A stretch of DNA of 64,000 nucleotides from Vulgatibacter incomptus. Lineage in GTDB: Bacteria > Myxococcota > Myxococcia > Myxococcales > Vulgatibacteraceae. Shown piece by piece: positions 3,040 through 46,676 of the stretch. Position numbers and translations under genes: made by a program. Under the pieces are notes generated by a model, which made no database searches, was not told where the DNA came from, and was given only the letters and a program-made list of their open reading frames with translations. The stretch covers positions 2,353,501 through 2,417,500 of the forward strand of contig NZ_CP012332.1 of NCBI RefSeq assembly GCF_001263175.1, given 5' to 3'. Within the stretch, counting starts at the first letter, position 1; the number at the start of each line of letters is the position of its first letter.

Positions 3040-3115
3040 TGGTGCCGACGGAGGGAATCGAACCCGCGACCTGCGCATTACGAATGCGCTGCTCTACCAA
3101 CTGAGCTACGTCGGC
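3040..3115 (-). tRNA. tRNA-Thr (anticodon CGT)
   Basis: A 76-base cloverleaf on the minus strand. Acceptor arm GCCGACG (3109..3115 complement) pairs with CGTCGGC. The D-arm contains AGCTCAGTTGGTAGAGC. The anticodon stem GCGCA/TGCGC encloses the loop TTCGTAA, giving anticodon CGT, which reads the threonine codon ACG. The T-arm contains GGTTCGAATCC and the CCA end is encoded. The 3' end faces the accessory region to the left, a common arrangement for tRNA-associated integration. Confidence 0.95.
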
Positions 3116-3296: not shown

Positions 3297-3875
3297 ATGA
3301 AGTCACTCACGAAACGTGCGCACCTCGCGATTCTGGCTCCCTTGGCCGTTCTCGTGGTGCTCGCCGGTCCCGCCCACGCTACGGTCGTCCGCTACCTGGA
3401 GCTCAAGGAACAGGTGGACCTCTCACGGCTGGTCGTGCGCGCCAGGACCGGCAAGACGGCCACCACCTTCGTCGGGAAGGACGGCAGGCCCCGCACCGAC
3501 CGCCCCTTCGAGATCCTCGAGACGTACAAGGGCGATCGGAAGGCCGGCGAGACCGTCCGGGTTCGCCAGCTCCTCGGCGAGACCGGCGAGGAGCGGCTGT
3601 CGATTCCGGGCGACGCGGTCTTCGTCGACGGCGAGGAGGTGGTGCTGCTGCTCGACGTGGACGAGACCGGGACGGCGTATCTGACGGCGCTCGGGCAGTC
3701 GATGTACACGGTGAAGCCCGGAGAGTTCGGCCCGACCCTTGAGCGGAGCCTCGGCGAGCTCGCCTTCTACCAGGGCGGCCAGCTGATCCCAGGCGGCGCC
3801 GAGGCGCCGATCCCCCTCGACGTGTTCGCGAAGCTGGTCCGCGAGTACGTGCGGCAGGGCGAGGACGCGCGATGA
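3297..3875 (+). CDS. exported protein of unknown function, paired with matrixin protease
   Basis: The 192-residue protein starts with a signal peptide (MKSLTKRAHLAILAPLAVLVVLAGPAHA). A mature region follows with little to identify it, apart from beta-rich stretches (LSRLVVRARTGKTATTFVGKD, DAVFVDGEEVVLLLDVDETG). An upstream ATG exists at 3219, but the ATG at 3297 has GGAGG six bases before it and leads straight into the signal peptide. The stop codon overlaps the start of the next gene (ATGA at 3872), so the two are translationally coupled. It may be a secreted partner, chaperone or inhibitor of the protease, which is inference from context only. I do not recognise the family. Confidence 0.7.
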   Translation: MKSLTKRAHLAILAPLAVLVVLAGPAHATVVRYLELKEQVDLSRLVVRARTGKTATTFVGKDGRPRTDRPFEILETYKGDRKAGETVRVRQLLGETGEERLSIPGDAVFVDGEEVVLLLDVDETGTAYLTALGQSMYTVKPGEFGPTLERSLGELAFYQGGQLIPGGAEAPIPLDVFAKLVREYVRQGEDAR

Positions 3876-43249: not shown

Positions 43250-44239
43250 TCATCGCCTCCGCCCCGTGAGCCCTGGCGCGGCTGCGAGGATCCCACGATC
43301 GACCGTTACGCGGATTCCGGCGGGGAGGTGGAGCTCGCCGCCTTCCCCGCGCGCGATCGAGAGGACTTCGGCCACCCGCGCCTCGCTCGGGACCCTGCCC
43401 CCGGCGTCTTCCACCAGGCGGCGGATCACCCGTCCCCGCAGCGCCTCGGGGAGGCGGACCAGGCTTTCGGTGTCCAGGCCGTCGCCGCGCCGCAGCCGGC
43501 CGAGGGCGCGCGTCGCCAGGCTCTCGAGGAGGCGCTCGTCGGCCGTCGCCAGCCGCGCCGCCCGCGCGAGCCTCGCGGACGCGCCGGGGAGCGCGGCCTC
43601 GAGCGCCGGCAACACCTCGTGCCGCAGGCGGTTCCTTGCGAACCTGAGGCTCCGGTTCGAGGGATCCTCGACCACTGGCAGCGAGAGGAGCCGCACGGTC
43701 TCGTGCAGGAGCGCCCGCTCGACCTCGAGGAGGGGGCGAAGCACCGTGCCGCCGGCGATCCGCACCCTCGGCCGGATCCCGGCGAGGCCACGGGTGCCCG
43801 TCCCTCTGGCGAGCCGGTAGAGGACGGTCTCCGCCTGGTCGTCTGCCGTGTGCGCGGTGAGGATCGGCCTGCCCGCCGCGGCTGCAGCCAGGGCGGCGTA
43901 TCGGCCACGCCGGGCCACGGCCTCGAGGCCGCCCTTGCCCGACGCCTCGATGGTCACGACGCGGCAGGCCGTGCCGAGCGTCCGGGCGGCCTCCATCGCC
44001 CGTCGAGCGTCGTCCGCCGATTCCGGGCGGAGTCCGTGATCGACGTGGACCGCCTCGAGCTCGAGCCGTCGCCCCCTCGGCAAGCTCGTGAGGAGGGCGA
44101 GGAGCGCCGCCGAGTCGGCTCCGCCGCTGAATGCTACGACGACCGGTTGCCCGCCGCGGACCTCCAGGCGGTCGAGTCCGGACGCGAGGCGCTCCAGCGC
44201 GATCCGGAGCTTTGGGGATCCCAGGACGGTTTTCCTCAC
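43250..44239 (-). CDS. tilS: tRNA(Ile)-lysidine synthase
   Basis: The 329-residue ATP-pyrophosphatase converts C34 of the CAU-anticodon tRNA-Ile to lysidine. The PP-loop is S38-GGADS in VVAFSGGADSAAL, followed by VHVDHGLRPES, LTAHTADDQAETVL, LARGTGTRGLAG and VEDPSNRSLRFARNRLRHEVLP. The C-terminal part is short compared with E. coli TilS. The start is uncertain: GTG at 44239 gives 37 residues before the P-loop and is preferred, since the bases upstream become AT-rich and promoter-like. The longer open frame overlaps the divergent RNA candidate. Confidence 0.9.
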   Translation of the reverse strand: MRKTVLGSPKLRIALERLASGLDRLEVRGGQPVVVAFSGGADSAALLALLTSLPRGRRLELEAVHVDHGLRPESADDARRAMEAARTLGTACRVVTIEASGKGGLEAVARRGRYAALAAAAAGRPILTAHTADDQAETVLYRLARGTGTRGLAGIRPRVRIAGGTVLRPLLEVERALLHETVRLLSLPVVEDPSNRSLRFARNRLRHEVLPALEAALPGASARLARAARLATADERLLESLATRALGRLRRGDGLDTESLVRLPEALRGRVIRRLVEDAGGRVPSEARVAEVLSIARGEGGELHLPAGIRVTVDRGILAAAPGLTGRRR

Positions 44240-44258
44240 GACGATTGGCGTTCGAATG

Positions 44259-44287
44259 TTGTGGGCATTGGTGCGCAGAGGTATATT
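44259..44287 (+). promoter_or_regulatory. candidate promoter of a plus-strand RNA
   Basis: TTGTGG (44259..44264), a 17-base spacer and TATATT (44282..44287) match the sigma-70 layout, with a good -10. The local sequence is the most AT-rich for several kb. It faces away from tilS and points to a stretch with no gene. Confidence 0.5.
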
Positions 44288-44293
44288 CTGAAT

Positions 44294-44559
44294 CAAAGCA
44301 GCGCGGAAACCCGGACGGGATCCCGCGGACGGAATGAGAAGTAGACGAGGCAGGTTGGAGGGAACGAAACGCGACGAGGAACCTCGGAGCGAATCTTCTG
44401 CGAGCGTCTTCTGCGAGCGAACCTGACGCCTCGCAACGCGCCTGTAGCGCGAACGAACTACGGGGGGCACGCCCTCCCGACAGCGGTCGGATCCAGGGGT
44501 CCCCCCCCTCCCCCTCTGGGTCCACTAGGGCCGCCGGGTCAAACCGGCGGCCCGTTTTT
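44294..44559 (+). ncRNA. candidate non-coding RNA between tilS and a lipoprotein gene
   Basis: This stretch of about 265 bases has no convincing gene on either strand, yet it lies between a promoter-like sequence and an excellent intrinsic terminator, both on the plus strand. It contains a 13-base tandem repeat (TCTTCTGCGAGCG at 44394..44406 and 44407..44419) and several GC-rich self-complementary parts, for example CCAGGGG near 44492 with CCCCTCTGG downstream. The longest early frame is a 30-codon ORF (MRSRRGRLEG...) without a clear ribosome site. It lacks the hallmarks of tmRNA, RNase P RNA and SRP RNA. A short leader peptide or a 5' region of a lost gene is the main alternative. Confidence 0.4.
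44528..44559 (+). terminator. textbook intrinsic terminator on the plus strand
   Basis: GGGCCGCCGG (44528..44537) and CCGGCGGCCC (44544..44553) form a perfect 10-bp stem with a 6-base loop, followed by GTTTTTCTT. The T-run is on the plus strand, while the flanking genes are on the minus strand. Confidence 0.9.
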
Positions 44560-44564
44560 CTTGC

Positions 44565-46319
44565 TCAATCCTGCACGCACTGACCGCCAACGGGCTGCCC
44601 GTCCACGTAGACGGCGTCCGTCGGGAGCACGTCCACCGCCCCGCCCGGCGTGCTTCGCCAGCGAACGCCGCCCAGCAGCCAGGTGTCGCACGGACCCTCG
44701 AAGCGAGTGGCGCCGGGGAGGCCGAAGCTCTCCTCGCCTTCGATGAAGAGGCGAGCCTGCACGTCCACGGGCGGCATGCACTTGCCTGCCGAGCAGACCC
44801 TGCCGGCGCCGCAAGACGAACTGTCCGTACACCTAGGCGCCGAGTCCCGCCCCCGCCGGTCCTCGAAGAAGTGCGCGAAGACCCAGTACGTCTCGCCGGA
44901 CTCGGGCCGGTTGAGCCAGACGGTCTCGAGGAGGCTCCCGTCGCCCTGGTCGTCGATGGCGAGCTTCGGGCTCGTGACCGGCGGGCTGTTGCCCCAGGGC
45001 GGCATGGGGTTCCGCCAGGAGCAATCGTCCGTGGTGTCCCAGAGCTTGTCCGGGCTGCCGCGCACCAGGTGCACGTCGAGGTCCACGAAGGGCGAATCGG
45101 GCCAGCGGATCTCCACGGCGATGGCCTGCTGCGGTCTCACCTCGAAGCTCACCACCGCCGGCACGCCGTCCTCGTCGGTTGAAGACGTGAGCCCGACTCG
45201 ATCGACCGCCGTCAGACCAACGGTGTAGGTACCGATCACCTCCGCCCGGAAGAAGCGGCGCAGCTTCGCGCCGGACACGGGCTCGAGGCGGGCGAAGGCG
45301 TCGGGGCCGTCCAGGGACCACTGCGTGTCGATGTCCTCGCCGTCCTCGGGGTCCGCCGTGCAGCCCGGCCGAACCGCGGCGTCGAACACGAGCTCGTCGA
45401 GCGGGCCGATGACCACCGGCCCCGGCCCGGGGGGCTCGGGATCGCGGCCCTGGCGACGCACCTCGCGGATCGTCAGACAGGCGTTCGGCGGTCGGTTCGG
45501 AGCGACGAGCGCCACTACCGGCAGCTCCACGGTCGGGACCTGAGGGTCGCTCGAGGCGATCACGATCGTGGTGCCCACCTCGCCCTCGAGCCCGACGGGC
45601 GGATCGAAGGTCGGATGGAAGGTGACGCCGGCTCCCGGCGGGATGACCTCGACGCGGGTCGCCTCCTCACCGAGGCCGAACCCGACGGCTGCCGCAGCGG
45701 CCCCGTCGGCGAAGGCGATCGACCGGACCTCGAGGGTGTCGTAGCCGACGTTCCTCACCTTGACCCGCGCCTTGACGTGCCGCCCCGCGATCACCTCGCC
45801 CAGGTCGAGGGAGGACGGCGCCTCCACTTCGGGGCCGACGCAGGTGTCGTTCTTGTCGTCGGCGCGACAGGCGAGGACGCGGATCGCTCCCTTGATCCCC
45901 TCGCCCCGAACCGGCAGGCGAATCGACGCCTGCTTGGGATCGTTCGTGGCGAGCACCAGCTCGGCGACGTAGGGCCGGACCTCTGTCGGACGGAAGCCGA
46001 TCGACACGGTCGTCTGCCGGTTTCCCGGAACCGAGAAATCACCGGCCGGATCCGCCGAAAAGGCCGCCGCCGAGACCCCGTCCTCGGACTCGAAGTGGAG
46101 GCTCGCGATCTCGACCGACGTGACGGTGAGGCTGTGGAGCACGAGAGAGAGCGTCCGGCTCTGCTCGATGGGGACCTTGCCGAAGGCGAGATCGTCCAGC
46201 TTCTTTCCGTCGTCGGCCTCGACGGAGATCGCCGGCGGCAGGGTGACGGTCCGCTGGTTCCCGCACGCCACCAGGCCGCAGGCAAAGAGTGCCAGACAGA
46301 GACGATAGAGGCGTCGCAT
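44565..46319 (-). CDS. large surface lipoprotein with ASH/choice-of-anchor-D-like domains
   Basis: The 584-residue protein has a lipoprotein signal (LALFACGLVACG). Two Ig-like domains of the ASPM-SPD-2-Hydin type follow: VPIEQSRTLSLVLHSL with VSIGFRPTEVRPYVAELVLATNDPK, then VIAGRHVKARVKVRNVGYDTLEVRSIAF with VEVIPPGAGVTFHPTFDPP. A PKD-like section (PNACLTIREV, GTYTVGLTAVDRVGLTS) comes next. The C-terminal region resembles pre-peptidase-like domains (VEIRWPDSPFVDLDVHLVRG, GETYWVFAHFFED) with a six-Cys insert. It probably binds or displays something at the cell surface; no enzyme motif is seen. It is monocistronic. Confidence 0.75.
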   Translation of the reverse strand: MRRLYRLCLALFACGLVACGNQRTVTLPPAISVEADDGKKLDDLAFGKVPIEQSRTLSLVLHSLTVTSVEIASLHFESEDGVSAAAFSADPAGDFSVPGNRQTTVSIGFRPTEVRPYVAELVLATNDPKQASIRLPVRGEGIKGAIRVLACRADDKNDTCVGPEVEAPSSLDLGEVIAGRHVKARVKVRNVGYDTLEVRSIAFADGAAAAAVGFGLGEEATRVEVIPPGAGVTFHPTFDPPVGLEGEVGTTIVIASSDPQVPTVELPVVALVAPNRPPNACLTIREVRRQGRDPEPPGPGPVVIGPLDELVFDAAVRPGCTADPEDGEDIDTQWSLDGPDAFARLEPVSGAKLRRFFRAEVIGTYTVGLTAVDRVGLTSSTDEDGVPAVVSFEVRPQQAIAVEIRWPDSPFVDLDVHLVRGSPDKLWDTTDDCSWRNPMPPWGNSPPVTSPKLAIDDQGDGSLLETVWLNRPESGETYWVFAHFFEDRRGRDSAPRCTDSSSCGAGRVCSAGKCMPPVDVQARLFIEGEESFGLPGATRFEGPCDTWLLGGVRWRSTPGGAVDVLPTDAVYVDGQPVGGQCVQD

Positions 46320-46460
46320 GGGGTTCCCCGACGGTTGGCCGTTCGAACCCAGTCTAGCGAGCGGTCACTTGGCTGCCAAATCGAGAGCTTCGCGTTGACT
46401 TGTGGCCCCACAACGTGTCGAATCGCAAGAAATCCTACATCCGACATAGGAGCGCGAAGA

Positions 46461-46676
46461 ATGGCAGGGACCGACAAGCGCAAGCAGAGCCTTTATTTCC
46501 CCGAGGAGATGCTCCAGGAGATCCAGGTCGAGGCAAATCGGCAGGATCGCTCCCTCTCGTGGATCGTGCAGCAGGCCTGGCGGATCGCGCGCGCGGAGAT
46601 CACCCGGTTCCCGTCGGTGAACGACGTGATCGGCGATCCTCCCCTGCCGGATCGTCGCGAAGAGCAGGGCTACTAA
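46461..46676 (+). CDS. TIGR04563-like small protein (ribbon-helix-helix type)
   Basis: The 71-residue protein reads MAGTDKRKQSLYFPEEML, then EIQVEANRQDRSLSWIVQQAWRIARAEI. The KQSLYFPEEMLQEI strand-helix and the SLSWIVQQAW second helix match a family of short proteins frequent in myxobacteria and resemble ribbon-helix-helix DNA-binding folds. A regulatory or antitoxin-like role is possible, but no partner gene is adjacent. AGGAG lies nine bases before the ATG at 46461. It is followed by a terminator hairpin and a repeat element. Confidence 0.8.
   Translation: MAGTDKRKQSLYFPEEMLQEIQVEANRQDRSLSWIVQQAWRIARAEITRFPSVNDVIGDPPLPDRREEQGY

Follow-up and report, generated by a model that had tools for sequence, protein, structure and literature searches.

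In Myxococcus, fruiting-body development is held back by the RNA Pxr, and the published primers and probe show that a hairpin with a C-rich loop comes first in this molecule (PMC5568312). A single C-to-A change in this loop abolishes Pxr function (PMC5684412). The search for direct targets of Pxr was still under way in 2025 (PMC11928866), and Hfq has been reported to be absent from myxobacteria (PMC5568312). B11, an RNA of mycobacteria, uses its C-rich loops to pair with G tracts located at ribosome-binding sites, as supported by mutations (PMC12395582), and mutations likewise support the finding that sX13 of Xanthomonas, an Hfq-independent RNA, represses mRNAs that carry G-rich motifs close to their start codon (PMC3771888). 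Pxr presumably acts in the same manner, through its C-rich loop on G-rich ribosome-binding sites. The authors of the B11 study point out that target prediction with C-rich seeds is unreliable in GC-rich genomes (PMC12395582).

Layout of the predicted RNA gene

The original prediction placed a candidate small RNA between tilS and a lipoprotein gene, both on the minus strand, in the 64,000-nucleotide stretch of Vulgatibacter incomptus DNA analysed here (the window). The sequence of this intergenic region matches that description, and both neighbours are indeed encoded on the minus strand: the divergent tilS gene for tRNA-Ile lysidine synthetase (43250-44239) is recognised by PF01171 and PF09179 (Pfam) and TIGR02432 (NCBIfam), while the gene on the other side (44565-46319) encodes a lipoprotein-like protein of 584 residues. 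Beyond it, at about 46459-46674 on the plus strand, lies a gene for a ribbon-helix-helix-like protein of the TIGR04563 family, a neighbour that is conserved beside the RNA throughout the order. The predicted RNA spans about 44294-44559 on the plus strand and has a candidate promoter of its own and an intrinsic terminator. Its 5' leader (44294-44484) is variable, and its conserved 3' part (44485-44559) comprises a hairpin with the terminator directly 3' of it. Judging from the sequence and its homologues, positions 44294-44559 of the plus strand very probably constitute a structured small-RNA gene.

The original prediction also described a sigma-70-like promoter. The candidate, TTGTGG-N17-TATATT at 44259-44287 on the plus strand with a predicted RNA start at about 44294, is the top site in the 300 bases that precede the hairpin (score 15.3, against a best-site mean of 12.5 in shuffles), in a scoring scheme that was devised for this analysis and makes such sites supporting evidence only. 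The window copy is nevertheless weak, with 8/12 consensus matches, and goes unreported by a 9-of-12 consensus scan; at 198 bp before the hairpin it is both weaker and farther away than in relatives. Most homologous loci have clear sigma-70-type promoters in the equivalent interval. The nearest relative carries TTGAGC-N17-TATAAT 89 bp before the hairpin, and about half of the loci carry TTGAA or TTGCT-N17-TATGAT, in most cases 54-121 bp before it. Overall, the best upstream site beats its own shuffle mean in 40/41 sequences (mean 15.5 versus 12.5).

With about 190 nt, the leader is longer here than in most relatives, where it measures about 50-115 nt, and no conserved leader stem was found in an alignment of 32 relatives. 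The tandem 13-mers that had been read as a hint of structure (TCTTCTGCGAGCG twice, 44394-44419, plus strand) are real, but they sit in this variable leader, are missing from homologous leaders and are an incidental feature local to the window. A GGAAT(G) motif occurs in the 130 nt before the hairpin in 25/40 loci, compared with a mean of 4.8 and a maximum of 11 in 200 shuffles. The window copy, read from the sequence as GGAATGA (44331-44337, plus strand), lies about 154 nt upstream and is hence not counted among the 25. In those 25 loci, GGAAT(G/A) precedes the hairpin by about 45-60 nt.

At the other end, the strong plus-strand terminator with a T-run is just as described: the intrinsic terminator that forms the predicted 3' end of the RNA (44528-44559, plus strand) has 10 G-C pairs at 44528-44553 followed by GTTTTT, and a terminator scan found two overlapping sites, on the plus strand only, where 0.4 were expected from shuffles. 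Myxococcaceae loci show a second terminator-like hairpin (CGCCCCGG...CCGGGGCGTTTCC) after the first, for example at about 3575-3640 in locus L077.

The C-rich-loop hairpin

The part of the RNA that matters, missed by the original prediction, is the C-rich-loop hairpin at 44485-44525 on the plus strand. Folding gives a conserved stem of 12-13 bp, whose core pairs 44488-44499 with 44513-44524, and a 13-nt apical loop, UCCCCCCCCUCCC (44500-44512, plus strand), in which a run of eight cytosines is followed by a U and another three cytosines. This loop is the putative seed and is kept in nearly all homologues. Hairpin and terminator together fold at -46.7 kcal/mol (z = -3.9), none of 200 shuffles being as stable, and the whole 269 nt fold with z = -2.6.

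The covariance analysis that had been proposed as a check supports the small-RNA reading. In an alignment of 41 sequences, pairing is kept in 97.0% of cells, 22 of the 25 pairs have changed on both sides and 174 cells carry double changes. Shuffled controls yielded 77.8% pairing, 13.3 such pairs and 45 such cells, with 0/500 shuffles reaching any of the observed values, and slid-register controls yielded at most 60.6% pairing, 14 pairs and 37 cells. In this 41-sequence alignment, changes on both sides are seen at 9/12 pairs of the hairpin stem and at all 13 model pairs of the terminator. Since the alignment was fitted to a covariance model, we added alignment-free folding as a check and found that 40/41 sequences form a stem of 11-13 bp with the C run inside the loop; a free MAFFT alignment of the hairpin was uninformative because it left the C run ungapped, and folding without alignment was used in its place. 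The stem changes freely among homologues (UGGACCCA/UGGGUCCA, UGGUCCUA/UGGGACCA and GGGCCCUGAAG/CUUCAGGGCUC), and despite these changes the loop is kept as U-C(4-8)-U-CCC in nearly all of them.

Distribution and gene neighbourhood in myxobacteria

When 40 relatives were searched with the plain DNA sequence, most matches covered exactly the hairpin block; identity reached 97% over 31 bases, in genera that had no other intergenic match. We then relied on covariance models of the hairpin-terminator part, R1 and the broader R2, with which 195 genomes of the phylum were searched. R1 detects the RNA in 125/195 and R2 in 127/195 genomes, the latter being 126 of the 145 listed members of the window's order (with or without a match) and one genome of a sister order. 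Carriers within the order include Myxococcus, Corallococcus, Archangium and Anaeromyxobacter, and M. xanthus AM003 is among the strains with the RNA gene (L098). Each carrier has one copy, except for one genome with a tandem pair. The covariance models found no match in 19 order genomes, some of which are fragmentary drafts and others nearly complete. Scanning 84,980 species genomes with a sequence pattern yielded 52 matches, nearly all under titles of Myxococcales or their families. Of the others, one was titled Comamonas and two only Proteobacteria bacterium; at least one of the latter two is the contig of G001, from the window's own family. In the window's genome the pattern matches once.

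The neighbourhood is conserved along with the RNA. With up to 3.5 kb of flank taken, tilS lies upstream on the opposite strand in 40/40 loci, and ftsH follows behind tilS in nearly all of these 40 whose contig extends far enough. Downstream of the RNA, most of the 40 loci have the TIGR04563 gene, with or without an intervening lipoprotein gene: in the Myxococcus and Anaeromyxobacter types it lies about 100-250 bp away on the same strand, whereas in the window and many relatives an opposite-strand lipoprotein-like gene separates the two. Locus L064 has the RNA and no detected TIGR04563 gene. The original prediction had made its case depend on conservation in close relatives, and what it took for a candidate small RNA between tilS and a lipoprotein gene proves to be a conserved single-copy element with a covarying hairpin and a near-fixed loop.

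Three loci deserve separate mention. The tandem copies, in genome G002 (L063; 3493-3565 and 3591-3661), each have their own hairpin and terminator, and the pair recalls the tandem pxr paralogs reported for Cystobacter. A degenerate copy with the loop UUUCCCUUCCC occupies the same locus in a small genome of about 2.1 Mb (L070, 3457-3532), and small genomes related to this one gave no RNA match. Finally, the record titled Comamonas sp. KCTC 72670 (BNCN01000007.1, L101) shares 88.7% identity with the tilS locus of M. xanthus over 4.7 kb and has the same RNA and synteny; on this sequence evidence its title is almost certainly wrong.

Relation to described RNAs and probable mode of action

The claim that no known housekeeping RNA fits is consistent with the Rfam scan of the whole window, which returned only a tRNA (3043-3115); the models of 6S, SRP, tmRNA and RNase P had no match there. 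No family reached its gathering score in the RNA region or in 12 homologous loci, which answers the Rfam check that had also been proposed, and a known housekeeping or Rfam RNA was ruled out for lack of a match at threshold. The 6C RNA model likewise gave no gathering-score match in the window or the 12 loci, nor one at E<=10 in the region. The best sub-threshold matches were ar14 (RF02344; 26.7 bits, gathering score 58.8) and BjrC68 (RF02353; 26.3 bits, gathering score 39). These alphaproteobacterial sRNAs resemble the window RNA in having a hairpin before the terminator, with C-rich loops in ar14 (CUCCUCCUCCC), but differ in phylum, in gene context and in scoring below gathering. We found no earlier description of this RNA locus in open-licence papers. 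The RNA has a conserved single-stranded C-rich loop on a covarying stem, a promoter of its own (weak in the window), an intrinsic terminator and no coding capacity, all features of C-rich-loop antisense sRNAs. We conclude that it is undescribed in searchable papers and without an Rfam family, a new RNA family of a known kind.

Among described RNAs, Pxr (RF01812) comes from the same bacteria and has its own promoter, a first hairpin with a C-rich loop (UUCCCCCCCAC) and a 3' intrinsic terminator, so that a hairpin with a C-rich loop and then a terminator are common to both. It differs in that it lies downstream of nla19/pxrR, whereas the window RNA and its homologues lie beside tilS-ftsH in 40/40 loci; moreover, Pxr has a reported sigma-54 promoter and three stem-loops and is reported only in Cystobacterineae. 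We found pxr in five genomes, with confirmation by RF01812 in the three scanned (87-129 bits), at a place separate from the tilS-ftsH RNA of the same genomes, and did not find Pxr in the window's genome. RF01812 does not match the window RNA at its gathering score of 80 bits, nor the region at E 10, and R1 in turn gives Pxr no more than 12-17 bits, which is close to background. On the grounds of locus and of both model comparisons, identity with Pxr was ruled out. One could imagine that the window RNA is an older, order-wide C-loop regulator, and that Pxr arose later from it or converged on its loop, with the result that the two RNAs are rivals for the same G-rich ribosome-binding sites, a scenario we consider rather unlikely.

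The more distant RNAs share chiefly the loop. 6C and B11, of mycobacteria and other actinobacteria, have C-rich hairpin loops and act independently of a chaperone (PMC12395582), but they belong to another phylum, differ in sequence and have no Rfam match here, and the active C-rich loop of B11 lies within the terminator itself. sX13 has C-rich apical loops as well, yet it comprises three hairpins with 4C/5C loops, is located at polA in a gammaproteobacterium and has no known homology to the window RNA.

How, then, might the RNA act? Because it shares its arrangement with Pxr, B11 and sX13, we propose by analogy that it probably regulates in trans through the C-rich loop. The hairpin would present this single-stranded loop as a seed for pairing with several mRNAs at their G-rich (GGGAGGGG-like) Shine-Dalgarno regions, and the pairing would block translation or destabilise the target mRNAs; such regulation would act without Hfq. 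Sites of the form GGGAGGGG-N2-10-ATG number 34 in the window's genome against 14 for a reversed-pattern control, and 32 against 6 in the nearest relative, an excess that ordinary Shine-Dalgarno usage alone could explain. Several of them precede plausible genes which, named by eye from their sequence, encode a polysaccharide-export lipoprotein, a glycosyltransferase, GalU-like and mannose-1-phosphate guanylyltransferase-like proteins, LexA and MsrA. Among the candidates compared, no orthologous target was common to the window's genome and its nearest relative; the polysaccharide-export candidate, followed through 25 genomes, yielded nothing conserved, and no consistent G tract was seen around the starts of the neighbouring genes rhh and ftsH.

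This lack of a conserved target would also suit a small RNA whose C-rich hairpin binds a protein and not mRNAs, be it a sponge, a decoy or an activity-modulating RNA. A near-fixed loop in a fixed architecture is compatible with such a role, and the GGAAT(G) motif of many leaders could be a protein site. However, the loop consists almost only of C, the loops of Pxr, 6C/B11 and sX13 pair or are inferred to do so, and no candidate binding protein is known; we judge protein binding to be clearly unlikely. The proximity of the same-strand TIGR04563 gene in the Myxococcus and Anaeromyxobacter types, and its conservation as a neighbour, might instead suggest that hairpin and terminator are a cis element of that gene, an attenuator or leader. 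In the window the lipoprotein gene lies between them on the other strand, and therefore the RNA there is no simple leader of the TIGR04563 gene. With the same arrangement in many relatives, a leader was ruled out as an explanation, and the RNA of L064 and the second terminator hairpin of Myxococcaceae also speak against cis action, which we hold to be very improbable.

Could the conserved block be no RNA gene at all? The terminator is strong, and chance conservation might account for the rest, but the lipoprotein gene, ending on the other strand, needs no plus-strand terminator, and a covarying hairpin upstream, an invariant loop and conserved promoters are at odds with a terminator that stands alone, a view to which we give hardly any weight. 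Nor does the region appear to encode a small protein such as a proline-rich peptide through the C run, even if GGAATG could hold a start codon and individual species have open frames that run across the C run. These frames differ between species, no reading frame shared across homologues was found, and the variants C6, C7 and C8 shift any frame through the loop; there is no common peptide. Furthermore, the loop is constant at the nucleotide level and the stem changes are compensatory, not synonymous. A coding peptide was ruled out on the basis of the unshared frames and the C-run variants, and its probability is close to negligible.

Regulation in trans through the C-rich loop is thus the reading we favour. 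Very few regulatory RNAs have been described in myxobacteria, Pxr being the well-studied one, and an order-wide, single-copy RNA with a C-rich loop that is also present in M. xanthus would be a genetically tractable second regulator. Its conserved covariance model would make a new Rfam family. The finding also raises the question of whether C-rich-loop RNAs may form a shared, Hfq-free layer acting on G-rich ribosome-binding sites in the GC-rich myxobacteria.
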